Source of the DNA: Desulfobacula sp.
GTDB lineage: Bacteria; Desulfobacterota; Desulfobacteria; Desulfobacterales; Desulfobacteraceae
Direction of reading: 5' to 3'
Assembly: GCF_030145145.1 (NCBI RefSeq)
Contig: NZ_JAQYWD010000001.1
Location: forward strand, 62,001 to 126,000
Length of the DNA stretch: 64,000 bases
Shown here: positions 17,714 through 62,698 of the stretch, in pieces
Position numbering within the stretch: the stretch's first letter is position 1
Layout: every line of letters starts with the position of its first letter
Notes under the pieces: generated by a model
The model's input: only the letters and a program-made list of their open reading frames with translations
The model's database searches: none
What the model was told of the DNA's origin: nothing
Program-made: the position numbers and the translations under genes

Positions 17714-18589
17714 CTAGGATTTCAAGCAGCACGTAACTGCGTCTTCAATAGAGGCAAACTCAAACTGAAATCCATTATCCAGTAACCGTTTTGGCATAAC
17801 CGTCTGCCCGGAGGTGATGATCTGGGCTCCCTCGCCGTAGAGCAGGCGAAGAACAAACATCGGGACCGGTAAAATGGTCGGCCTTGAAAGGGCCTTACCC
17901 AGGGCCCGGGTCAACCCAAGGTTGGTGGTCGGATTAGGGGCGGTCATATTATAGACGCCTTCATAGGTTGAATCATTCATGGCTGCTTGAAAAACCCGGG
18001 CCAGATCTTTTATATGTATCCAGGAAAAAGGCTGGCTGCCATTACCAATGGTGCCGCCCAGACCCAGTTTGAACGGTAAAAGCATCTTTTTCACAATCCC
18101 TCCCCCCTGTCCGAGAACGACACCAAAACGAAAAATGGCAGTGCGACAGCCAAACGCCTTTGCCCTTAAGGCTTCTTGTTCCCAGTCCCGGGACAGGTGC
18201 CCCAGAAAATCATCGGCCGGCACATGGTCATCTTCGGTATGAATGCCTGTGGCAGCATAATAACCAATGGCAGACGTCGAGAGAAACACGCTGGGAAGCG
18301 GTTTCATTAAGGCGCAGGCATTCACCAGTTTTTCGGTCAGGCCTACCCGGCTGTCATACATGATTTTCTTGTATTTTTCAGTCCAGCGACTGATCACAGG
18401 TGCTCCGGCCAGGTTAATGACAGCACTGGCCCCCTGCATATGTTTTGCCAGCTCCCCGGGTGACAAGGCAAATTCTTTGCGGCCCAAGCGGATGATTTCC
18501 CAGCCGGTTTCCTGGAATTTACGGCACAAATTGGAACCGACAAAACCACTGGCCCCGCTCATTGCGATGATATAACGGTTTTCCTTCAT
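17714..18589 (-). CDS. TIGR01777-family NAD(P)-binding epimerase-like protein
   Basis: 291 aa, an extended SDR of the YfcH/TIGR01777 group. It has the nucleotide motif GASGFVGSNLCRKF at residues 11-24, VINLAGAPV, the SDR segment LSTSAIGYYAATG and the group-specific C-terminal DUF1731 part (LPVPMFVLRLLYGEGAQII). Substrate and reaction are unknown for the group. It lies 132 bp after the MFS gene on the same strand and could be the last gene of that operon or independent. Confidence 0.88.
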   Translation of the reverse strand: MKENRYIIAMSGASGFVGSNLCRKFQETGWEIIRLGRKEFALSPGELAKHMQGASAVINLAGAPVISRWTEKYKKIMYDSRVGLTEKLVNACALMKPLPSVFLSTSAIGYYAATGIHTEDDHVPADDFLGHLSRDWEQEALRAKAFGCRTAIFRFGVVLGQGGGIVKKMLLPFKLGLGGTIGNGSQPFSWIHIKDLARVFQAAMNDSTYEGVYNMTAPNPTTNLGLTRALGKALSRPTILPVPMFVLRLLYGEGAQIITSGQTVMPKRLLDNGFQFEFASIEDAVTCCLKS

Positions 18590-18721
18590 TTGAATCCCCT
18601 AAAACTAACGTCCTAAAATTGAGTAAATTCAGTTTCAATATTGTGACGTATTCTGAAAACGGTTTCAAGAATTTTTTATCTTTAACCGCCGTGACCATTT
18701 CCGGTAACAGGTCTGTCATCT

Positions 18722-20011
18722 TTAAACGGGACTCTGTGTATAAAGGGGATCCTTCTTAACGGCCACTTCTGTTCCATTATTTTTCTGGTGTGGATCAATT
18801 TGCAGGGCGATTTGAGAGGTGTGATTGATAATCCTGAAGTCCACCTGATCTTCCACCGGGATAATTCGGGCAAATTCATTCTGCCTTAAAAGAAAAGATA
18901 CAGCTGTAAACGTCATACCGGCTGCTGAAAAATAGACAAAGAATCCACTGGGATTGTCCAGCAGCGCCATGACGGATGATGAAATCATGGGGCCCATCAT
19001 GGAGCCGATACCATGAAACAGCAAAAGAGCAGAGCTGACAGTGACCACATCCCTGGGTTCAAACATATCATGGGTCCTTGCCACGGCCACAGGATAGATG
19101 CTGAACATCAGCCCGCCAAAAAGACTGGCGCCGGCCATGAAAAGTCCGAAAGAATGTTGAGATGCCAGAATCATCAATCCGCTGATAATGGCAAAGAGTC
19201 CGCCGATTACAGGTATCACAATGGATCTGTCACATCGATCTGAAAGGCTACCCAGGGGCAACTGAAATAAAAGTCCTCCCAATACCGTAATCATCATGAA
19301 ACTGGACAATTGGGAGACAGTTAAACCCAGTTGCTGGCAAAAGACCGGCCCCATGGTATAAAAGGCACTGGAGGTCAAACCGGCGGCAAAACATCCGAGC
19401 AGCCCCAGGGGAGCCCGTTTCATAATTGTTTTCAGCCCCACAGACCTCACATCCGCCAGGCGGGGATGTCGGGTACGGGTCATTGCAACCGGTATAATAC
19501 AAGACACCAATAACAAACCGATAATAAAAAACAGGCTCTGGCCTGCCACATTGCCCAGGTTGAGCAACTGCTGAGCGGCACTGCTGCCCAGGAAATATAT
19601 CACCATGTAAATGGAAAACACCCGTCCCCGCGTCTGGGGGGTGGCGCTTTCGTTCAGCCAGCTTTCAATGATCATGAACAGCCCAATGGTTGCAATTCCG
19701 GTAAAAAATCTTAACGCTGCCCAGGCAAAAGCAGAAACATAATAACCATGGAGCATGACCATGGCCGTGGCAAGGGCAGCAAAAACACCAAAAGATCGAA
19801 TGTGGCCGATGCGCTTCATCAGATGGCTGCAATAAATGGTGCCCACAGCAGAACCGATAAAATAAGCGGTTAAAATCAATCCGGTTGTCTGGGTTGAAAA
19901 TCCTTCAAGGGTCAGCCTTAGGCTTAAAAAGGTTGACAATAATCCCAATCCCATTGCCATGATCAGCACAGCAGTATAAAGGGCCATAAACGATTTTAAT
20001 ATGGATGTCAT
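18722..20011 (-). CDS. MFS transporter, likely product exporter (YcaD-like)
   Basis: 429 aa, about 12 membrane helices. It starts MTSILKSFMALYTAVLIM; an earlier in-frame ATG at 20041 lacks a ribosome site. MFS signatures: GSAVGTIYCSHLMKRIGHIR between helices 2 and 3, then LPLGSLSDRCDRSIVIP in the second half. It is most like the YcaD group of putative drug/metabolite exporters. It follows the decarboxylase, ligase and transferase genes in what looks like one operon, so I infer export of their product. Direction and substrate are not shown by the sequence. Confidence 0.85.
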   Translation of the reverse strand: MTSILKSFMALYTAVLIMAMGLGLLSTFLSLRLTLEGFSTQTTGLILTAYFIGSAVGTIYCSHLMKRIGHIRSFGVFAALATAMVMLHGYYVSAFAWAALRFFTGIATIGLFMIIESWLNESATPQTRGRVFSIYMVIYFLGSSAAQQLLNLGNVAGQSLFFIIGLLLVSCIIPVAMTRTRHPRLADVRSVGLKTIMKRAPLGLLGCFAAGLTSSAFYTMGPVFCQQLGLTVSQLSSFMMITVLGGLLFQLPLGSLSDRCDRSIVIPVIGGLFAIISGLMILASQHSFGLFMAGASLFGGLMFSIYPVAVARTHDMFEPRDVVTVSSALLLFHGIGSMMGPMISSSVMALLDNPSGFFVYFSAAGMTFTAVSFLLRQNEFARIIPVEDQVDFRIINHTSQIALQIDPHQKNNGTEVAVKKDPLYTQSPV

Positions 20012-20052
20012 AACACAGGTTCCAATAAGTTTTTCATACATGTTAAAGGGGG

Positions 20053-21330
20053 TTAAATGGTAACAACTTCAGGCAGGGGTTTGATGAAGTGTTGACCGAG
20101 ACTATAGGTATACGCGCCCTGACATGGAATCATCAGGAGATCTCCCGGCGTGATGTCCTTGCCAAAATAGGTATATCCCCATACATCATGGGGGGTGCAC
20201 AAAGCGCCTAAAATATCACAGGGTTTTTCCGTTAATGCGCTTTGGCTGAGATTGAGTATGGGGAAATAATCGGTTTCAAACCGTTCCCAGCCAATGGCAT
20301 TGGTGCCGGCGTCGGTGATGACCAGATCATGATTTTTTTTATCGATTACCGTAAAAAAGAGATGCATGGCACTGTGGCAAATCCATCTGCCGGGTTCAAA
20401 ACAGATGCGGCAGTTAACCCAGGGGAAAATATGGGTATTGATGGTTTTAAAAAGGATCTGGGCAAACAGTTCTATGGGGGTTGAGGGTCTCCGATAATGC
20501 GCATTGCCATGCAATACATCCTTGTTGTCGGCACGTTGGCGAAGACCTTCATCGGTGCCTGCAAACTGAAGCCACTCTCCTTCTTCCGGCCAGTAGCCGC
20601 CGCCAATATCTATAAATTCAATGCACTGATTAAACCGGGCGGGCATTTTCTTGAGGGTTTTGCCAAGCAAGACAATAAATGCCAGTTGCCTGTCCGGTGT
20701 CAGATTCCAGCTCGAATGAAATTGAAGCCCCTTAAACTGGATATTGGGCAGGTTTTTCACCTGATTCCAGAAGGCAGGCAATTGTTCCGGGAGAATGCCG
20801 AATTTTCTCCACAGCCCGTTTGGGTTTGTGGTTAACCGGATACCCACCCGGACAGGTGGCGTGGCGTCTGGTTCAGAAACCAGTGCTTTAAGCCGTTCAA
20901 GCTCCCCAAAACTGTCTAAAAGAAGGGTGGTCCTGTCTTTATGGGCAATGGCCAGGGCCAGCTCTTCATTGGTTTTACCCGGCCCGCTGAAGATAATATC
21001 CCGGGCGTTTAACGCCAGGGCAGATGTCAATTCTACTCCGCTGGAGACATCCAGGCCAAACCCGGATTCGACCAGGGTGGCAGACACATCCGGATGGTTA
21101 TTGCTTTTCATGGCAAAATAAAAGGCAGTTCCGGGGAAAAAACGGTTAAATGCTTCTGACAAGTGTTTCGCATTCTGTTTTAACGTGGCAGATTCCAGAA
21201 TCCACAGGGGGGAGCCATGGTTTTGAACCATTGCCTGATACGTGTGTTTACGGTCAAAATAGCCACGAACAAACGGCTCCAGGACATCCCTTGGCAAAAA
21301 AGGGGTGCCCGGCAGGGGGTGATCAGACAT
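20053..21330 (-). CDS. Type III PLP-dependent amino acid decarboxylase
   Basis: 425 aa of the ornithine/diaminopimelate/carboxynorspermidine decarboxylase fold. Visible: the PLP Lys in FYFAMKSNNHP, HSSW where HxGS is usual, the glycine loop EFIDIGGGYW, the EPGR motif (CFEPGRWICHSA), the catalytic Cys and Asp in GALCTPHD, and the Tyr in GAYTYSLG. It should decarboxylate an amino acid or a carboxylated polyamine. The divergence around HSSW and a long insert (GTDEGLRQRADNK) make the substrate uncertain. It starts 6 bp after the ATP-grasp stop. Confidence 0.88.
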   Translation of the reverse strand: MSDHPLPGTPFLPRDVLEPFVRGYFDRKHTYQAMVQNHGSPLWILESATLKQNAKHLSEAFNRFFPGTAFYFAMKSNNHPDVSATLVESGFGLDVSSGVELTSALALNARDIIFSGPGKTNEELALAIAHKDRTTLLLDSFGELERLKALVSEPDATPPVRVGIRLTTNPNGLWRKFGILPEQLPAFWNQVKNLPNIQFKGLQFHSSWNLTPDRQLAFIVLLGKTLKKMPARFNQCIEFIDIGGGYWPEEGEWLQFAGTDEGLRQRADNKDVLHGNAHYRRPSTPIELFAQILFKTINTHIFPWVNCRICFEPGRWICHSAMHLFFTVIDKKNHDLVITDAGTNAIGWERFETDYFPILNLSQSALTEKPCDILGALCTPHDVWGYTYFGKDITPGDLLMIPCQGAYTYSLGQHFIKPLPEVVTI

Positions 21331-21336
21331 GACAGG

Positions 21337-22620
21337 TTATGATGCCTCCGACAAATGGGTTGGCTTTTGATGGGGTTCGATATGGATATCTATTGTTCGG
21401 GCAATACTAAGGGCCTGGGATTCAGGATATTTGCCATTTGACGGCTCAATGATCACATGTCCCAAAGACCAGGAGTCGTAGTCATCTGGCGGTAATGTAA
21501 TTTGCCGGCCCGGTTTTTTGGTTAATAAAATATGTTTTACCCGGGTGTCTGCCAGCAGATGGCGGGTTTCTATTCCTCTGAGGGTGCCGCTTTTGTCTGC
21601 ATGGAGTCGGATTCCCACATGGGGTGTAACCGTATCATACCGGGTGAGTTCCAAAGGCGAGTGTCGTGCAAAATCAAGGCTTAGTTTCAGTATATCCGTC
21701 CCGGTGGACATCTTTAACAGATAGGGCAGACAATCCCCCCCGGGCCGGGGGGTCAGTTCAATCAACTGAATGGTGTTGCCGGAAACAATGAAATCAACCA
21801 TACAGATGCCTCTGTTGATTCCCAGGGCCTGTGCACTTTTCAGCAGGAGCTGATCCACCGCATCAGGATTGATCGAGTGGGGCAGCTGTCCGGGCAGCAC
21901 ATACCCAATGATAGTGCCGAATGGCCTGAAGGGTGATTTGATTTTTCTGGTCATCCGGATGATATGGATGGCATTATTTTCACAGATGAAATCACAACTG
22001 TATTCAGTCCCCTGGATCAATTCCTCGGCAAGCATCAGGTGTGTTTGGCCAGGGGATTTTTCAAACAGGGGATTTTGTGCCCTGTTTTCCAGACCGTTGT
22101 GTATGAGATTAAAGGCTGCATGACACTCCGGCTTACTGGTACACTTGAAAACAAGTTCACTGCCGCTCCCTGTCAAGGGTTTTAAAACGCATCCGGATGT
22201 GACGGAACGAAAAAAGGCCAGGACATCTGAAATGGTTTTTATGGGGGCGACCCTGGGGCATCCGATACCATGGCGCGTCCAAATCTGTTTGGACACATAC
22301 TTGTCCCTGCAGTTTTGAATGGTTTTTACCGACGGATAATCAAGGCCCCATTTTTCCGCAATACAGGCTGTAAGGGCCATTGACTCGCAATCAAAACAAT
22401 AAATACCCTCAATGGCCTGATCCCATGTCTTCACGTGCTTGTTCAATCGTTCAAGGACCTGAAACGTGTCAGATAGATTTACCAGAATCTCTTCCTTGGG
22501 AGAGGGGCATGCTTCTTGTGCAGCCTGCCGGATCCCGGGTGCGGTGACAAACAGAGTCCTTCCAGGACAGGACGTCCGGATCCATTGGATATAATCGGAT
22601 GTTGTACCGACCACCAGCAT
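21337..22620 (-). CDS. ATP-grasp ligase of the small-molecule operon
   Basis: 427 aa. The start is taken as MLVVGTTSDYI, which puts it 4 bp after the upstream stop; an earlier ATG would overlap. It shows an N-terminal pre-ATP-grasp alpha/beta domain, then the ATP-grasp core: CVLKPLTGSGSELVFKC, LAEELIQGTEYSCDFI, GICMVDFIVSGNTIQLIELTPRPGGDCL. This fold joins a carboxylate to an amine through an acyl phosphate. Given the neighbouring decarboxylase and acyltransferase-like gene, it may form an amide on the decarboxylated amine. Confidence 0.85.
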   Translation of the reverse strand: MLVVGTTSDYIQWIRTSCPGRTLFVTAPGIRQAAQEACPSPKEEILVNLSDTFQVLERLNKHVKTWDQAIEGIYCFDCESMALTACIAEKWGLDYPSVKTIQNCRDKYVSKQIWTRHGIGCPRVAPIKTISDVLAFFRSVTSGCVLKPLTGSGSELVFKCTSKPECHAAFNLIHNGLENRAQNPLFEKSPGQTHLMLAEELIQGTEYSCDFICENNAIHIIRMTRKIKSPFRPFGTIIGYVLPGQLPHSINPDAVDQLLLKSAQALGINRGICMVDFIVSGNTIQLIELTPRPGGDCLPYLLKMSTGTDILKLSLDFARHSPLELTRYDTVTPHVGIRLHADKSGTLRGIETRHLLADTRVKHILLTKKPGRQITLPPDDYDSWSLGHVIIEPSNGKYPESQALSIARTIDIHIEPHQKPTHLSEAS

Positions 22621-22624
22621 GATT

Positions 22625-23593
22625 TTATGCACAGATTTTTTGTTCCTTTGTTTCAAAGGTCAGGTCCATATAATTAAACGATGGATGGTGGTTTAATTCA
22701 TACAAGGGTCGGGGCGTGAGATGGAACCGCTCTTTCCAGTTAAAATCGCCGCAGAGAAAGTCAACAGAATCAATTCCCTGGCAGCAGGACCAGTCCATAT
22801 GATGGAGATTGATAAGCTTGGCCACCCCTGGGAAATCCGGGTTTGTCCCCCCGGCCAGCAATGTGTAGGCGTTTTTATACACCGCTCCCATGTCCACGGC
22901 AGCAATGGACCCATCAATAAGCACTGTAGTGATCCTCATCATTCCCATCCGGGTGAGAAACATGGCAAGATTTTCAAAGGAATGGTAAAATCTTGGATCA
23001 CTAAAGTAAGAGGCTTCTCCAAAGGATTCCCTGTTCAGTTTGACAAGGTGGGCTAAATCCTTTGATTGGTTGAATCTAAACGTCACCTTCCGGGCATGGA
23101 GTTTTTTCAACTCTGCATTGAGCTTTTTTCTGGATTTACCGGAAAAAGAGAGCAGATAATTTTCAAAGGAAAATCCATATAAACCCGGATGAAAAAAATA
23201 TCCGATTTCGTCCGGCATTAGGCGGTTCGACAAACCCAAAACGGCATTCCAGCAAAGATAGCGAAGATGCAACGGTCCTGGAACGGAGTCCAGTAAATTT
23301 TCTATAACCTTAGGCGTTTCTGCGATGATCCGGTTTTGCTCGAGCCAGGTTTTTCCCTGCCACGTTTCTCCGGGAAACTGAACATATTGTTGTTTTTCCC
23401 CGTCCCAGCACAGGGCCAGAAGTCCCACAGGCCGCTGATTTTTTTCAACCACATGAAAGTGCAGGGGTCTGGAAAACGCATCCTGAAAACAGGAGCGGAC
23501 CTGCCACAAATCAAACAGTCCTCTGGCTGGCCAGAGTTTTTCCCATATCTGTCTGCACTGTTCAGGATCTTCGTAGATAATGGTCTTCATCAT
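22625..23593 (-). CDS. GNAT/FemAB-like acyltransferase
   Basis: 322 aa, similar in layout to the double-GNAT BioF2/FemAB-like group (Acetyltransf_6): LHFHVVEKNQRPVGLLALCW in the first half, YLLSFSGKSRKKLNAELKKL in the middle, then ITTVLIDGSIAAVDMGAVY and YTLLAGGTNPDF. Members move acyl or aminoacyl groups to amines. It starts 4 bp after the SpeD-like stop. I cannot tell donor or acceptor. The order transferase, ligase, decarboxylase, exporter suggests one pathway. Confidence 0.8.
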   Translation of the reverse strand: MMKTIIYEDPEQCRQIWEKLWPARGLFDLWQVRSCFQDAFSRPLHFHVVEKNQRPVGLLALCWDGEKQQYVQFPGETWQGKTWLEQNRIIAETPKVIENLLDSVPGPLHLRYLCWNAVLGLSNRLMPDEIGYFFHPGLYGFSFENYLLSFSGKSRKKLNAELKKLHARKVTFRFNQSKDLAHLVKLNRESFGEASYFSDPRFYHSFENLAMFLTRMGMMRITTVLIDGSIAAVDMGAVYKNAYTLLAGGTNPDFPGVAKLINLHHMDWSCCQGIDSVDFLCGDFNWKERFHLTPRPLYELNHHPSFNYMDLTFETKEQKICA

Positions 23594-23597
23594 TTAC

Positions 23598-23996
23598 TCA
23601 GTATCTGTGGGTGACGTTCAGATTGGAGAACGACCCACCAAAATAAGTTTGGGCAAAGGATTTAACGGTCTCAGGGTCATAGGCCTTACAGCTAAAGACA
23701 TCCAGATAGGTGGTATTGGTTTTGTTTGCAAAATGGGCGGATATAAGAGAGGTCTCTATCAACTGAACCATTGAAAATCCGGCCACTTTTTCATCTTCTC
23801 CAAAATGAACCACCTGGGTTTCCCCGAACCGTTTCATTTCAATCAGGTCACATAATTCAACTACAAATTGTTTGATCAGGTCAGCATCCCTGATCTTGGC
23901 GGGGTCACAGTCATAGATATCAATGGCGGATGCAATCCCCCATACCTCAGGGACAGTATCCATTTTAAGGGGTGTTTCAGCTGTCAGAGTATTCAT
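23598..23996 (-). CDS. SpeD-like (AdoMet decarboxylase family) protein with altered processing site
   Basis: 132 aa, resembling the S-adenosylmethionine decarboxylase fold. The family block normally reads ISESHLTIHSF, where the Ser after Glu is cleaved to form the pyruvoyl cofactor. Here it reads LIETSLISAHF, with Thr at the processing Ser and Ser at the next His. The later catalytic-acid Cys is kept (YLDVFSCKAYDP). Either processing occurs differently or this is a non-pyruvoyl paralogue with a binding role. The start overlaps the stop of the upstream small gene by 4 bp. No spermidine synthase gene is nearby. Confidence 0.72.
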   Translation of the reverse strand: MNTLTAETPLKMDTVPEVWGIASAIDIYDCDPAKIRDADLIKQFVVELCDLIEMKRFGETQVVHFGEDEKVAGFSMVQLIETSLISAHFANKTNTTYLDVFSCKAYDPETVKSFAQTYFGGSFSNLNVTHRY

Positions 23997-24199
23997 CGTC
24001 TTTTCTCCTTTCTTTTTTTGTCCAGGGTGCTGAACAGGCTACCATTTTCTTTGTCAGTGTCTTTCCATTGGGACCGTTTGCTGAGTTTCTTTCGACGCTG
24101 CTGCATTTCCGTCTGGTCTTCCTCACACAAGTCCTCATCATAAAAATCTTTGAATTTCGGGTTTTTATGCCTTGTTCTCCGATTGTTTTCTCTGGTCAT
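23993..24199 (-). CDS. Small highly charged protein, first gene of operon
   Basis: 68 aa, no recognised family. The ATG at 24199 has AGGA 6 nt upstream. The protein is extremely hydrophilic, with an acidic patch in the middle (FYDEDLCEEDQTE) between basic stretches and a KKRKEKRR end. Its TGA overlaps the ATG of the SpeD-like gene (ATGA), and it lies about 55 bp downstream of the sigma-54-type promoter. These two facts support it as a real gene. The function is not predictable. Confidence 0.6.
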   Translation of the reverse strand: MTRENNRRTRHKNPKFKDFYDEDLCEEDQTEMQQRRKKLSKRSQWKDTDKENGSLFSTLDKKRKEKRR

Positions 24200-24263
24200 T
24201 GTTTTCCTCATAAGGATCTATAAATAATTAGCCGGTATTGCTCGCGGACCTGAATTTCCCTTT

Positions 24264-24279
24264 AGCAACTGTTGTGCCG
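24264..24279 (-). promoter_or_regulatory. Sigma-54 (-24/-12) promoter of small-molecule operon
   Basis: The minus strand reads CGGCACAACAGTTGCT, matching TGGCACR-N4-TTGCW at 15 of 16 positions, with GG and GC correctly spaced. The predicted start of transcription is about 54 bp before the 68-aa gene. A sigma-54 activator gene is divergent from it. This is the best regulatory match in the window. Confidence 0.75.
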
Positions 24280-24368
24280 CACCTTGTTGTTTTTTTAAAA
24301 AAGACGGATGTTCAATTAAATCAGCGGGTTCCATGGATGACTGCCAGGATGGGACGAAATAAAATTCA

Positions 24369-24472
24369 GTAATTTTTATCCGAATTATGAAAATTGGTAT
24401 TTTTTTACTTGATTTGTGGTCATTTTCAGGTATCATCAACAAATAGTGGGATTGTTTTGGTAAAAAATTACC
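24369..24472. promoter_or_regulatory. Candidate activator-binding sites between divergent genes
   Basis: A perfect 5-4-5 inverted repeat, GGTAAAAAATTACC, lies at 24459-24472. Weaker 14-nt look-alikes are at 24397-24410 (GGTATTTTTTTACT) and 24369-24382 (AGTAATTTTTATCC). They lie roughly 100-220 bp upstream of the sigma-54 start site, the usual distance for enhancer sites. The AT-richness means the weaker two could be chance. Confidence 0.35.
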
Positions 24473-24491
24473 GATCAAAGAAAGGGTCCAT

Positions 24492-25922
24492 ATGTTAATC
24501 AGGGTAGCCTGTGCCATCAAAGAAAAAAAACTGCAGGCAGATCTTGAAAAAAGATTGTCTGATTTTGATGTGCAGTTGAAAATATTCGGAAACAACAAGG
24601 CCCAGTGGCAGGAGCTGGTTCGCAGTTGTGGGGATGTGTTTTTAGTCAGTAAATCCCTGATCCCCCGGCCCATTGAATCCAGTGTGACGCTGCTGAACAA
24701 TCTACCGGAAAAGCCTACCACCATTATTCTTGATGACCGGGAATCCTCGGAAGAACATGCAAATCTTCTGGCATCCGGGGCAGATGTCGTTTTATATACC
24801 GGCATTTCCCAGGACAGCCTGATGGAGGCCATTGAAAGTACCCTGGAATCCAGACGACAGTTTTATTATGTGGATCGCCTTGACCAGCGGGGCAGGATAA
24901 AACCCAGATTAAACGACTTTGTCTCAAACAGTGAAGATATGCAGCGGTTTCTTGAAGAAGTTCAACAGGTCGTTACCAGCGACGCCAGCCTGCTGCTTCT
25001 CGGAGAAACAGGTGTGGGCAAAGAACATCTGTCCAAGGCCATCCATGCTGAAAGTCACAGGGCTCAGGGCCCTTTTATCCCGATCAATATGGCGGCCATA
25101 CCCGAGCAACTCATGGAAAGTGAATTATTCGGTCATGAACAAGGTGCGTTTACGGGTGCGGTCCGGTCCCGGCGGGGGGCTTTTGAACTGGCCCATGGCG
25201 GCACCATCTTTTTAGATGAAATCGGAGAAATGTCCCTGCAGATGCAATCCAAACTGCTTCGGGTCCTCCAGGATTTTGAATTTACACCAGTGGGTAGTGA
25301 AAGCCCTGTATGGGTTGATGTAAGGGTCATTGCCGCCACCAACAAGGATTTGGAAAAAGGCATTTTAAAAAACGCCTTCCGCCAGGATCTTTATTATCGA
25401 ATCGGCGTAATCTCTCTGACTATTCCCCCCTTGAGAAAACGGAAGCAGGATATCCCTTCCCTGGCCAACCATTTTTTGAATATGCACAATATAAAAATCG
25501 GCCGTGAAATCCATCGGTTTTCCCGGGCAGCCATGGAAGCCCTTTGCCAATATCCCTGGCCCGGGAACATCCGGGAGTTGATGAATGTCATTGAACGCGC
25601 CGTCCTTTTATGCCGGTCCGACGTTATATCCGTTAACAATTTTCCCGGCACTTTCCAGGAAAGTGCTTCCTTGATAGGGGACTTTCCCGAGGGCCCGTCA
25701 AGTTTAAAGGATCTGGAGATGGATGCCTGGAAAGGGAAGACCCTTTCCGAGGTCAGGAAACGGGTGATCCGGAATGTTGAAAAAAAATATCTTGAAATGG
25801 TCCTTGGCCAAACCCATGGAAAAATCGGGGAGGCCGCAAAGATTGCCGGAATTCACCCAAGGGGGTTGTATGGAAAAATGAAACAGCTGGGACTTGACAA
25901 GACCGACTTTAAATCCCGGTAA
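24492..25922 (+). CDS. Sigma-54-dependent transcriptional activator, divergent to operon
   Basis: 476 aa. The N-terminal 130 residues look like a degenerate receiver (MLIRVACAIKEKKL, PTTIILDDRESSEEH) without the usual acidic pair, so phosphorylation is unlikely. AAA+ domain at about 145-375: Walker A GETGVGKEHL, the sigma-54 loop GAFTGAV, Walker B GTIFLDEIGEMS, and FRQDLYYRIG. Fis-type helix-turn-helix at the end (GEAAKIAGIHPRGLYGKMKQLG). It is transcribed away from the small-molecule operon, which has a -24/-12 promoter, so it is the probable activator. The inverted repeat at 24459-24472 just before its start could also mediate autoregulation. Confidence 0.92.
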   Translation: MLIRVACAIKEKKLQADLEKRLSDFDVQLKIFGNNKAQWQELVRSCGDVFLVSKSLIPRPIESSVTLLNNLPEKPTTIILDDRESSEEHANLLASGADVVLYTGISQDSLMEAIESTLESRRQFYYVDRLDQRGRIKPRLNDFVSNSEDMQRFLEEVQQVVTSDASLLLLGETGVGKEHLSKAIHAESHRAQGPFIPINMAAIPEQLMESELFGHEQGAFTGAVRSRRGAFELAHGGTIFLDEIGEMSLQMQSKLLRVLQDFEFTPVGSESPVWVDVRVIAATNKDLEKGILKNAFRQDLYYRIGVISLTIPPLRKRKQDIPSLANHFLNMHNIKIGREIHRFSRAAMEALCQYPWPGNIRELMNVIERAVLLCRSDVISVNNFPGTFQESASLIGDFPEGPSSLKDLEMDAWKGKTLSEVRKRVIRNVEKKYLEMVLGQTHGKIGEAAKIAGIHPRGLYGKMKQLGLDKTDFKSR

Positions 25923-25936
25923 AGCGGGGTGAGTTG

Positions 25937-27142
25937 TCAGCGTCCGTCCCGGACAATACTGCCTTCTGCCATGATCAGCAAGGGGAATGCCCCCAAATGA
26001 AAGGGGTCCGTGCCCCAGACAATCAAGCTGGCCAGTTTCCCGGGCTCAAGTGTTCCCAGGCAGTCATCTATTCCCAAGATAGCGGCATTTTTACGGGTAA
26101 TTAAAGATATGGCATCTTCCGGTGTCATTCCGTGGATTAAAAAATATTTCAAAGAATCCCGAAGATGATGCGCCAGGATGACCGGATGGTCTGTCATGAG
26201 TCCGAAATCGGCATTGGACTGCATCAAAGATGCCGCATTTTTATAGGATGCATTTTTGAGTTCTACCTTATAATCAAATGATCCCACAGGGCCATATACA
26301 ATCGGAATATTATTTTTTGCAAGGGCATTAAAAATGTCAACGTCACATATGTCACAGGCATGTTCCGCTGTAACGGTTATGTTGAACCGCTGCTTCATAT
26401 CGATGAGGTACAGGGCATCATCCGCCTTATGAACATGGACCTTTGCACTAATTTCCCCTTTGAGAAGTTTAAAAACAGCCCATTGTTCCGTTGACAATGC
26501 AATGTCATAGGCCCGCTGGATCAGGGTCAGGTGCTGCTGGTTTTTTGGACCTGACAGATCAAGAACAGCCTGTTCCTTTTTAATTCGAGCCTGTTCTTCC
26601 TTTCTGAGGATTTCCAGAAAATAATTTTCCAGCAGGGCGGTGGTTCCCATGCGGGTGCTGGGCCTTTTCCCTTTCCAGGTCGTCGCCGCCCGGGGGTTGT
26701 ATCCCAGGGCCATCTTGACCCCACACTCCCTGATTACGGCGGATTTTCGATTTGGGGAAAAATTTCTAATGACCATGGCCTGTCCACCCAGAATGTTTGA
26801 ACTTCCCGGCAGGACACAACTGTAGAGCACCCCAAAATCCACGGCTTCACTAAATGCCCGGTCATCAAAATAAATACTGTTGACGGGGTTATGCAATGGG
26901 GTGAAGGCGTTGAGGGTATCGTCCACCTCTGATTCCCCGGCCGGTTCTCCCTGCCGCTCCATGCCGATATGGGAATGAGGGTCAATAAAGGCCGGGGTGA
27001 CAACGCCCGATACATCGGATTTGTAATTTTTGGAACTCACTTCGACAATTTTATTGCCGTGCACCACAATGGATTTCCGGCGCGTTTTTATTCTGCCGTC
27101 ATAGAGAAGGTCCGCGCCAATAATGAATTCTTTTCCAGCCAT
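25937..27142 (-). CDS. Amidohydrolase (imidazolonepropionase-like)
   Basis: 401 aa from the ATG at 27142, which has a strong AAGGAGG; an upstream in-frame extension lacks one. A metal-dependent hydrolase of the amidohydrolase superfamily: HxH in FIDPHSHIGM, later His residues in KVHVHKADD and VTAEHACDI, the Asp in LMTDHPVILAHH, and the typical end LGTLEPGKLASLIVWG. It belongs with imidazolonepropionase-related enzymes that cleave C-N bonds in rings or dipeptides; the substrate is unknown. Its stop faces the activator gene's stop across 14 bp. Confidence 0.88.
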   Translation of the reverse strand: MAGKEFIIGADLLYDGRIKTRRKSIVVHGNKIVEVSSKNYKSDVSGVVTPAFIDPHSHIGMERQGEPAGESEVDDTLNAFTPLHNPVNSIYFDDRAFSEAVDFGVLYSCVLPGSSNILGGQAMVIRNFSPNRKSAVIRECGVKMALGYNPRAATTWKGKRPSTRMGTTALLENYFLEILRKEEQARIKKEQAVLDLSGPKNQQHLTLIQRAYDIALSTEQWAVFKLLKGEISAKVHVHKADDALYLIDMKQRFNITVTAEHACDICDVDIFNALAKNNIPIVYGPVGSFDYKVELKNASYKNAASLMQSNADFGLMTDHPVILAHHLRDSLKYFLIHGMTPEDAISLITRKNAAILGIDDCLGTLEPGKLASLIVWGTDPFHLGAFPLLIMAEGSIVRDGR

Positions 27143-27305
27143 CCCAGCCTCCTTATTCCTTTGATTTTTTCTCAGAAAAATTATATTCTTTTGTATTACA
27201 ATTGATGCAAACAAATTACAATATGCTGCTTTCACAATATGGGATCCATGGACTTGACCAGGCCGGAATCCGTTGAAAAAAAGCCGTAAATCAGGAGAGG
27301 TCCGC

Positions 27306-27896
27306 ATGTATATCCCGTTCCATTACCAGGTATCTGAATATGACTGTGTTCCCACGGCCATGATCAATGCCGTCAGCTATCTGTTTCACAGAAAAGAGGT
27401 CCCCCCCATGGTCATTCGGCACATTTACATGTACTGCATGGACACGGTGAGTCGGGATGCCAGATTTGGCATTGGCGGGACCAGTAAACTGGCTGTGCGG
27501 CTCATGGGAAACTGGCTTCATTCCTATAAAATGAAAAAATTTTCAGTTGACACTGAATTTTTAGACATGGAAAGGGTCACCCTGGAAACGGGCGGTCGAA
27601 TCCATACCTGTCTGGAACAAGGGGGGATTGTGCTGTGCAATATGCTTTTAACCCCCCAAGAGGAGCATTATATCATGATTACCGCCATTGAAGGGGAATG
27701 GGTCTATTGTTTTGATTCATATCTCAGGACCTCTGTACGGGGGATGCAAGGAAAAGTGAAGGTCCTCAAATCGCTGGACGGGCGGGCACCCAATTTGAGA
27801 ATTAAAAAAGACTGGCTTGGCCGTGCACAGATCCGTCGATTCTGTCTGGGTCCCTTCCACATCAGAGAAAGCCTTCTGATATGGCGGAATTCCTGA
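27306..27896 (+). CDS. Peptidase C39-like protein
   Basis: 196 aa. The start is placed at MYIPFHYQVSEYDC, after AGGAGAGG. It has the papain-like C39 pattern: Cys14 in YDCVPTAMINAVSYLF, a His in EEHYIMITAIEG and an Asp in VYCFDSY. No signal peptide or ABC transporter domain is attached, so it is not a bacteriocin exporter. Such stand-alone domains are often annotated as putative cysteine peptidases of unknown target. It is divergent from the amidohydrolase. Confidence 0.75.
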   Translation: MYIPFHYQVSEYDCVPTAMINAVSYLFHRKEVPPMVIRHIYMYCMDTVSRDARFGIGGTSKLAVRLMGNWLHSYKMKKFSVDTEFLDMERVTLETGGRIHTCLEQGGIVLCNMLLTPQEEHYIMITAIEGEWVYCFDSYLRTSVRGMQGKVKVLKSLDGRAPNLRIKKDWLGRAQIRRFCLGPFHIRESLLIWRNS

Positions 27897-61129: not shown

Positions 61130-62698
61130 CTAAACTTTTTTTCTTATTCCTTTTAACATAAAAGCAAGACAGATTGCAACTATAGAGCTGATGGCAAAAA
61201 TATCCCCATATTTTGTATAGAAACTGATCCGTTGGAGCACAGGGACACGTCGTGTCAGTGTCTGGTCGGTGAACAGGGCAGTGGTTTCAAGGCGTTCTCC
61301 CTTGGGGTCAATAAAGCCTGAAATGCCGGTATTTGCAGCCCGTGCAACAGTCCTGCGGGTTTCTACTGCCCGAAATACGGCAATGGAAAGATGCTGCTGG
61401 GCAGCGGATGTCTTCCCAAACCAGGCATCATTGGTAATCGTGGTCAGAATATCAGCCCCGTTCATTACAAATTCAGCGGCAATGGCGGGAAACAAAATTT
61501 CAAAGCAGATCAATACCCCTGTTTTGTGTGTGGCCTTCAGGTCCTGGGTATGGAAAGTAAGGGGAATAAGGGGATGGTGACCCATGGAGAAATTGCCTGC
61601 CTGGGCCGTTATCTTACCTAAAAATGTCAGATAGTCACCCAGGGGGACATACTCGCCGAAAGGGACCAGGTGATGTTTGTCATAAGTGCCTGTAACAATG
61701 GAAAATTGGTTCAGCATGTAGGCGCGATTGTAAAATGAGGTGGTTTCATTATTCGACTCGAATGCCGGGCTTCCGATGAGAAAATGGGTCTTTAAGGATC
61801 GGACACATTGATCCACCTGGTTTGACAATAGTCTGTCAAATCCATAATAAAACGGTAGAGCGGTTTCCGGCCATATCACAAGATCAGGCATGCTTTTTGA
61901 TGCTGCGTGGGAAAGCCGGATATACTTTTCCACGGTCGTTGTTTTAAAGGCTTCATCCCATTTTAAGGTTTGTTTAATATTGCCTTGAACAAGGGCGATG
62001 GTCGTTTTTTGTGCGGTACGGATGTGAGAATCCAGGTCGGTGATGCAGTGGTAGCCGTAAAAAAAAGTACCGCACACCAGAAGGGTTGTGTATAAAGCAG
62101 CGATAAAAAAGGGCGGTTGAAATTTTTTTTTAAAAGACATCCAGATATCCGCCACGAGGACGTTCACCAGAACAATGAGAAAGGAGACCCCATAAACGCC
62201 TGAAAAATCGGCAATCTGGATGAACGAAAGATTCGCATACTGGCTGTATCCCAGTCCCCCCCAGGAAAAGCCTGTGAATGCAACGGCTCTGATATATTCA
62301 AGGCCGGTCCAGAGACAGGCGGCCAGCAAAGGGGCAACGCAGGCTGGGGGGGCTAATTTTTTTAACAGAAAGGCAAATATCGCCGGGTATAGCGAAAGGT
62401 AAAGACATAAAAGGGTGAGGGTGGAAACGGCAAACAGGGGATGGAGTCCGCCATAGACATGCACCGTAGGGACGATCCAGTAAAGAAGGGTTAAAAAATG
62501 GGCGAGCCCGATGGTAATTCCACTGTAAAAGGCCTCTTTTTTTGTCATGGTTCGGATGGACACAAGCCAGGGGACCAGGGCAAAAAAGACAAGAAAAGAG
62601 AGACCTGTCTTGGGAAAAGAAAGTGTCAATGCCAGACCGCTTGTCAAAGCTGGAAAATTTTTACTCAAAATACTATTGTTTTTTTCGTCCATCATCAT
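61130..62698 (-). CDS. lnt: Apolipoprotein N-acyltransferase
   Basis: 522 aa from the first of three successive ATGs at 62698; the longer open frame upstream has no homology pattern. An inner-membrane enzyme adding the third acyl chain to lipoproteins. It has about six to eight N-terminal helices (LTSGLALTLSFPKTGLSFLV, GFSWGGLGYSQYANLSFIQI) and a nitrilase domain with the catalytic Glu in LVIWPETALPFY, Lys in YDKHHLVPFGEYVP and Cys in VLICFEILFPAI. One C-terminal helix follows. It starts the operon with prfB. Confidence 0.93.
   Translation of the reverse strand: MMMDEKNNSILSKNFPALTSGLALTLSFPKTGLSFLVFFALVPWLVSIRTMTKKEAFYSGITIGLAHFLTLLYWIVPTVHVYGGLHPLFAVSTLTLLCLYLSLYPAIFAFLLKKLAPPACVAPLLAACLWTGLEYIRAVAFTGFSWGGLGYSQYANLSFIQIADFSGVYGVSFLIVLVNVLVADIWMSFKKKFQPPFFIAALYTTLLVCGTFFYGYHCITDLDSHIRTAQKTTIALVQGNIKQTLKWDEAFKTTTVEKYIRLSHAASKSMPDLVIWPETALPFYYGFDRLLSNQVDQCVRSLKTHFLIGSPAFESNNETTSFYNRAYMLNQFSIVTGTYDKHHLVPFGEYVPLGDYLTFLGKITAQAGNFSMGHHPLIPLTFHTQDLKATHKTGVLICFEILFPAIAAEFVMNGADILTTITNDAWFGKTSAAQQHLSIAVFRAVETRRTVARAANTGISGFIDPKGERLETTALFTDQTLTRRVPVLQRISFYTKYGDIFAISSIVAICLAFMLKGIRKKV

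Follow-up and report, generated by a model that had tools for sequence, protein, structure and literature searches.

A conserved cassette of SpeD-like, FemX-like, ATP-grasp and decarboxylase genes in Desulfobacula sp. and other bacteria, and its possible role in making putrescine amides

In a stretch of 64,000 nucleotides from Desulfobacula sp. (positions 62,001 to 126,000 of contig NZ_JAQYWD010000001.1; hereafter the window), four adjacent genes on the minus strand form a cassette that is conserved in order across distant bacteria. They encode a SpeD homologue of the SpeDC type (SPED, 23598..23996; AdoMet_dc family, PF02675, E 1.6e-22), which is a predicted pyruvoyl-dependent L-ornithine decarboxylase, a double-GNAT FemX-like transferase (GNAT, 22625..23593; PF13480), an ATP-grasp ligase (GRASP, 21337..22656; PF13535, E 1.3e-14), and a type III pyridoxal phosphate (PLP) decarboxylase with the alanine-racemase fold (PLPDC, 20053..21330; assigned by profile and fold match). 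With moderate confidence, we propose that these four enzymes, with no nonribosomal peptide synthetase involved, build an amide conjugate on putrescine and decarboxylate that conjugate. The gene order and the co-occurrence of the genes are observed, and every reaction is predicted from family membership. No published description of the SPED-GNAT-GRASP-PLPDC gene set was found in the open-licence literature, which agrees with a preliminary description of this DNA, made from the sequence alone, that could not name a known pathway with these genes.

The preliminary description had also suggested a neighbourhood search for the ATP-grasp, SpeD-like, and GNAT genes. The genome collection was scanned with an alignment of the ligase, and the best 80 of the 92 relatives found were kept as loci. 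The set proved to be recurrent, with SPED, GNAT, GRASP, and PLPDC following one another along the ligase strand in 62 of the 80 loci, and its conserved core is made up of four genes, namely those for the SpeD-like protein, the double-GNAT protein, the ATP-grasp ligase, and the PLP decarboxylase, without the genes for the transporter (MFS) and the oxidoreductase (SDR) that follow in the window. Reduced sets consisted of GNAT-GRASP-PLPDC (9 loci), GRASP-PLPDC (8 loci), or GRASP alone (1 locus). Half of these 18 incomplete loci begin at most 122 bases from a contig start; the other nine (L076, L079, L080, L081, L102, L111, L117, L122, and L128) are without the neighbour itself. Judged by record title, the full set is represented in Desulfobacterota, Nitrospirae, Zixiibacteriota, Planctomycetes (Phycisphaerae and Pirellulales), Omnitrophota, Krumholzibacteriia, Verrucomicrobia, Sumerlaeota, and an alphaproteobacterial metagenome-assembled genome (MAG); provided that these titles are correct, it spans nine phyla or more. 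Pairwise identity of the ligase across 49 aligned rows ranges from 32 to 79%, with a median of 40%.

Co-occurrence of the genes was also determined in a sample less tied to the choice of loci, an even draw of 247 genomes across the phylum, the genome of the window included. Using presence cut-offs of E 1e-60 for GRASP, E 1e-40 for GNAT, and E 1e-90 for PLPDC, each of the three genes was detected in 11 genomes, the identical 11 in all cases, and in none of the others (Fisher p about 2e-19, with genomes treated as independent). All nine carriers newly fetched from this sample contain SPED-GNAT-GRASP-PLPDC, split over two contigs in G202; one of them, G134, is the record already present as locus L150, so that eight are new. 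Among 58 relative genomes, GRASP was found in 19 (a count that excludes a weak match in G046, 1.7e-9), GNAT in 20, and PLPDC in 19, and all three genes in 18. Exceptions to the three-gene co-occurrence are G011, whose contig ends within the ligase gene, and G033, which has remnants of GNAT and the decarboxylase and no ligase. In G012, G015, G016, and G020, GNAT lies on a different contig from the ligase, yet it is present; SPED is found on another contig together with a GNAT in G018 and G020. Two cassettes without SPED belong to genomes that carry it in another form, as an unlinked gene in G058 and as a SpeD1-SpeD2 fusion adjoining the ligase in G016. When four enzymes stay together across nine or more phyla and co-occur almost strictly, they normally serve a single conserved product. 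The decayed copy in G033 (L070, 9376-11153) consists of a GNAT gene without its middle part and a decarboxylase match without its start, with no match to the ligase.

The gene earlier called SpeD-like can be assigned more narrowly. Its product scores 32.1 bits against the NCBIfam equivalog for S-adenosylmethionine (AdoMet) decarboxylase, far from the cut-off of 75.65, and carries instead the residues of SpeDC, the ornithine decarboxylase; an AdoMet decarboxylase function was rejected on these two grounds. The text of Li et al. (2023, PMC10407285) names four residues of the central region, Gln, Thr, Phe, and Tyr, as diagnostic for SpeDC, and the corresponding Q78, T82, F89, and Y97 are invariant in all 46 aligned rows, as are S83, H88, and C103, the residues of pyruvoyl formation. 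These rows comprise the window protein, 41 of the 50 listed stand-alone open reading frames (ORFs), one of which (L121 15421) lies outside a cassette, and four fusions. With SpeD1-SpeD2 fusions from the same genus, SPED aligns over their C-terminal half, at 57-65% identity. In the same article, the second domain of the SpeD fusion of Desulfotignum phosphitoxidans is described as decarboxylating L-ornithine, and that of the Desulfobacter latus fusion is called degraded. The cassette SPED of D. latus (L098) retains all seven SpeDC and pyruvoyl residues, which would fit a role in putrescine supply. Because SPED carries the SpeDC-diagnostic residues, it probably makes putrescine from L-ornithine. 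SPED shares its residue signature with the SpeDC proteins and SpeD-SpeDC fusions presented in that text, and differs from them in standing alone beside genes for a ligase, a FemX-like transferase, and a PLP decarboxylase rather than SpeE, HSS, or CASDH. A single-sequence search of the PDB with SPED returned no match at E 0.01. If correct, the proposed pathway would explain the presence of a second, stand-alone SpeDC in genomes with a complete spermidine route. Elsewhere in the genome of the window (contig C67, L074 7504-8484), a SpeD1-SpeD2 protein is encoded in a cluster resembling the spermidine operon of L051, and this protein contains a further predicted ornithine decarboxylase domain.

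An AlphaFold model of GNAT, built from 54 rows (the window protein and 53 of the 58 listed ORFs), reached a predicted local distance difference test score (pLDDT) of 92.1 and a predicted template modelling score (pTM) of 0.88, and displays a double-GNAT fold. Foldseek placed Sbb17, FemX, Sba18, and A-PGS at the top ranks, with TM-scores of 0.53-0.60 and 10-14% identity. The gene had earlier been labelled GNAT/FemAB-like; as the model points to a FemX-type transferase, transfer of an aminoacyl group is more likely than the plain acylation that had also been envisaged. In FemX-fold, aminoacyl-tRNA-dependent transferases of natural-product pathways, as set out in the text of PMC12945691, the catalytic Lys is K305 in FemX and K329, following F328, in DhpH-C. 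All 54 rows of the cassette GNAT contain an invariant W286-K287 pair, a possible counterpart of the F-K pair of DhpH-C. The two-GNAT architecture is common to the cassette enzyme and to Sbb17, Sba18, and the DhpH-C and Orf11 proteins of that text; the low identity to these transferases sets it apart, and its use of tRNA is a prediction. A profile search of PDB chains gave no match for GNAT at E 0.01, and comparison with a profile of LPG-synthase relatives gave no useful match (probability 6%, E 0.006, 41 columns).

Two proteins led the profile search with GRASP, namely 4dim, whose deposited name is phosphoribosylglycinamide synthetase, and the L-amino acid ligase BL00235. The ATP-grasp domain exceeds its cut-off, and the match to the L-amino acid ligase C-terminal domain (LAL_C2) reaches 21.1 bits, under its cut-off of 29.4. 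In the profile search with PLPDC, the N-citrylornithine decarboxylases FslC/FigC came first, followed by SbnH and BtrK. The PLPDC model, built from 49 rows (the window protein and 48 of the 58 listed ORFs), has a pLDDT of 90.3, and the fold search also puts FigC first, at about 22% identity. The catalytic residues K75 and C378 are invariant in all 49 rows, and PLPDC shares with SbnH and BtrK the C-T-P-x-D stretch that surrounds the catalytic Cys. Fold, catalytic Lys and Cys, and nearest relatives of PLPDC fit the FigC/SbnH/BtrK type of enzyme. FigC, SbnH, AcsE, MccE, and BtrK are grouped with diaminopimelate decarboxylase in the text of PMC7857480, according to which these five act on conjugated amino acids. 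PLPDC resembles FigC/FslC, SbnH, and BtrK as presented there in its fold and catalytic Lys and Cys, and shares an LCTP motif with the last two. It differs from them in its low identity, in an invariant G-W-x-R-x-E stretch of its own, and in having an ATP-grasp ligase as its cassette partner, with no nonribosomal peptide synthetase-independent siderophore (NIS) synthetase in the cassette.

In the proposed pathway, SPED would convert L-ornithine into putrescine, as its residue signature and homology suggest. The FemX-like GNAT would move an amino acid, probably from aminoacyl-tRNA, toward the putrescine amide conjugate, into which GRASP would ligate a carboxylic or amino acid at the expense of ATP. 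PLPDC would then act on an amino acid that is by now part of the conjugate and remove its alpha-carboxylate, as FigC, SbnH, and BtrK do. The product would be a small, amide-linked, polyamine-like molecule, and if this reading is correct, sulfate reducers and many uncultured bacteria would contain putrescine amides of a class so far unrecorded. The amine or polyamine conjugate put forward in the preliminary description fits the evidence in outline, with a SpeDC-type enzyme and a FemX-type transferase in place of the more general assignments and without conservation of the exporter of the window.

Several observations weigh against this proposal. The substrates of all the cassette enzymes are predictions. 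Diaminopimelate decarboxylases stand close behind SbnH and BtrK in the PLPDC profile search, and in the fold search diaminopimelate, lysine/ornithine, and D-ornithine decarboxylases are ranked between FigC and SbnH (39) and BtrK (48). The leading GNAT matches have TM-scores of only 0.53-0.60, and the CoA-dependent VipF and clavulanate tandem GNAT appear at Foldseek ranks 16 and 20. As for putrescine supply, two genomes whose cassette is without SPED (G059 and G060) contain no PF02675 match, and a third (G044) has a SpeD of canonical type only. G047, G049, G064, and G068 have no PF02675 match besides the cassette SPED, which may serve ordinary polyamine supply there. Finally, no transporter family recurs as a neighbour in more than 8 of the 80 loci.

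Polyamine ligation by ATP-grasp enzymes is known from Escherichia coli, whose YgiC and YjfC are ATP-grasp peptide-spermidine ligases. Compared by description, they share with the cassette the ATP-grasp ligation of a polyamine, and differ in being single enzymes rather than part of a four-gene set. A parallel to the overall logic is the pathway of E-64, in which, according to the text of PMC12568646, an ATP-grasp enzyme, an amide synthetase, and a PLP decarboxylase give rise to putrescine or agmatine amides. Like that route, the proposed one would need no nonribosomal peptide synthetase to form amides of a decarboxylated amine, but the E-64 pathway is fungal and employs other enzyme families, and the sections of that article drawn on here mention no FemX-like or SpeDC enzyme.

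Considering the decarboxylase, the product of the cassette could be a citryl-amine metal chelator resembling rhizoferrin or staphyloferrin, made with the ATP-grasp ligase in the role of the NIS synthetase, an explanation that we regard as unlikely. PLPDC is closest to FigC by both profile and fold. In an alignment whose register was read by eye, H381 (48 of 49 rows) corresponds to H357 of FigC and K347 of SbnH, with numbering that agrees with PMC7857480, and W348 (49 of 49 rows) corresponds to W309 of SbnH; the text of that article places these three FigC and SbnH residues at the citryl group. Moreover, a citrate synthase II-type gene is found after PLPDC, on the same strand, in four loci (L099 12695-13849, L105 12676-13830, L156 10301-11461, and L164 7148-8368). 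This link is weakened because the four genes are 70-93% identical to each other, and their presence may simply reflect a shared local gene order. They accompany 4 of 110 ligase sequences, among which some contigs are represented twice, and in L156 the cassette and the citrate synthase are separated by another gene. In addition, no NIS synthetase of the IucA/IucC type was detected among the ten window proteins scanned.

The ligase and the transferase raise the alternative of a compatible-solute or stress dipeptide pathway, in which SPED and PLPDC would trim amino acids. The N-acetylglutaminylglutamine amide pathway likewise combines an acyltransferase with an ATP-grasp enzyme, GRASP resembles L-amino acid ligases, and several hosts are marine or saline according to their record titles. 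Nevertheless, the hosts include a groundwater MAG (L094, record title), and the fold of GNAT is FemX-like and not that of a plain acetyltransferase; we rate this alternative as somewhat less probable than the chelator. A lower estimate still is given to an alternative supply of ordinary polyamines, which would account for the SpeDC signature, for the genomes in which the cassette SPED is the sole SpeD homologue, and for the reduced cassettes that adjoin spermidine genes. The genome of the window, however, already possesses a SpeD1-SpeD2 fusion and a further SpeD, and no route to free polyamines is known to involve an ATP-grasp or FemX-like enzyme.

The operon opens with the gene for a small charged protein of 72 amino acids (CHG, 23993..24211, minus strand, from the ORF list), for which neither Pfam nor NCBIfam gave a family match at E 0.1. 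Relatives of CHG stand first in the operon of many Desulfobacteraceae loci, and they also occur with the reduced CHG-GRASP-PLPDC sets that adjoin spermidine genes. CHG was rejected as a core component, since several cassettes have no such ORF: in 16 loci inspected, the frames examined between the regulator and SPED contained no CHG-like ORF in L094, L095, L097, L105, L107, and L108. The 3' end of the window gene differs in frame from that of its nearest relative (L075), as a run of A is one base shorter in the window; CHG consequently runs on to overlap SPED by 4 bases, and its relatives stop earlier, often after a Trp. This difference may be real or may be an assembly error. Charged, Trp-tailed ORFs, defined by a criterion fixed after seeing examples, adjoin the cassette in 28 of the 80 loci (20 are CHG relatives by profile and 8 are not), with nine found elsewhere in 1.26 Mb. 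In ten later loci, and with a slightly wider length limit, one adjacent ORF (L156) and three distant ones were obtained. That the cassette modifies the small charged protein, either by attaching a putrescine-derived group to it or by using it as a carrier like LysW or BtrI, appears highly improbable; many cassettes are without a charged, Trp-tailed ORF. LysW-type features are a zinc ribbon and an acidic, Trp-containing tail, and the window CHG matches no family. Ten small neighbour proteins were scanned, and a single LysW-like one exceeded the cut-off (PF21344 zinc ribbon; L150 8020-8307, identical to L159 5144-5431), located upstream of the cassette; a LysW-type carrier as a general rule was rejected, as L150 and L159 are one record.

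Expression of the operon was previously attributed to sigma-54, and the activator, the position of the promoter, and its recurrence are all consistent with this. The -24/-12 promoter core (24264..24278, minus strand) reads GGCACAACAGTTGCT at 24278-24264 and is the sole exact GGCACN5TTGCW match in the window. Taken alone, this match is weak because 20 of 100 shuffled sequences also contain one (mean 0.20), and support for the promoter comes from its position and recurrence. In a test with 200 base shuffles per region, the region upstream of the operon in the window outscored all 200 for a sigma-54-like site, and the best site reached p <= 0.05 in 34 of 38 upstream regions of the activator type, which are related, so that the counts are not independent. 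The element had been termed near-perfect; it is present and recurrent, but that wording is slightly generous, as the -24 box has C in place of T ahead of GG.

A perfect inverted repeat had been reported between the divergent genes, and GGTAA-N4-TTACC is indeed found at 24459..24472 (plus strand), as the sole copy in the window (4 of 100 shuffles contain one, mean 0.04). It is a likely activator (enhancer) site; sites with 9 or 10 of 10 matches to it occur in 12 of the 38 activator-type upstream regions, and imperfect stretches resembling it lie at 24366-24384 and 24393-24408. The adjoining divergent gene (ACT, 24492..25922, plus strand; PF00158 E 1e-68, HTH_8) encodes a sigma-54-dependent activator with a sigma-54 AAA+ domain, the GAFTGA motif, and a Fis-type helix-turn-helix. 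No PF00072 receiver domain was matched in ACT at E 0.1, in agreement with the earlier view that a working receiver is missing; the NtrC profile aligns from residue 16, under its cut-off, which would fit a decayed receiver. Activators with the N-terminal domain of ACT, divergent to and adjoining the cassette, are found mostly in Desulfobacterota and in a few loci elsewhere, e.g., L094, L134, and L142. In Desulfobacterota, the divergent activator would turn the gene set on through the recurrent -24/-12 promoter, and the GGTAA-N4-TTACC-like upstream site may take part in activation in some loci. A TetR-type gene in the direction of the cassette occupies the position of the activator in 13 of the 80 loci, with the family assignment confirmed by Pfam in one member (L112). 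Beyond the activator, the window encodes an amidohydrolase (25937-27307) and a 207-aa protein without a Pfam family (27273-27896), with relatives in 4 and 6 of the 80 loci, respectively, mostly just past the activator.

PLPDC is followed on the minus strand, after 11 bases, by an MFS transporter gene (18722..20041; PF07690) and, after a further 132 bases, by an SDR oxidoreductase gene (17714..18589; TIGR01777, E 1.4e-88). The gaps from CHG to the MFS gene range from -32 to +11 bases. The operon is real, with its genes on one strand and short gaps as far as the MFS gene. Conservation covers fewer of its genes than the preliminary description claimed, and membership of MFS and SDR is unconfirmed, as neither is conserved with the cassette. 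Across the 24 loci L051-L074, of which one belongs to the genome of the window, tblastn at E 1e-4 matched neither protein. In 90 loci (L075-L164), the SDR protein had no match and the MFS protein had one, 32% identical and away from the cassette (L086). Both were rejected as pathway genes on this basis. The MFS gene of the window is probably co-transcribed with the cassette, and the SDR gene probably lies outside the unit. As to the exporter formerly assigned to the pathway, the MFS of the window is not part of the conserved unit, but PF07690 genes of other sequence lie 32-101 bases after PLPDC, on its strand, in 3 of 79 loci (L127 3745-5175, L134 12590-14269, and L154 12662-14101). Export is possible because a different MFS gene has been placed after PLPDC more than once.

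Other genes were observed next to the cassette in small groups of loci. Directly after the decarboxylase, L083 (5306-5476), L084 (12552-12722), L086 (12560-12709), and L101 (12549-12746) encode a small protein that has paired Cys motifs and an acidic tail; those of L084 and L101 matched no family over the cut-off. A C39-peptidase-like gene lies 75-147 bases after PLPDC in L117, L122, and L128, with a relative upstream in L123 (Pfam was applied to L117). Downstream of the cassette, L110, L112, and L116 carry a RimK-like ATP-grasp gene and a gene for a GNAT-C39 peptidase fusion (Pfam was applied to L112), accompanied in L112 and L116 by a gene with an RLAN domain.

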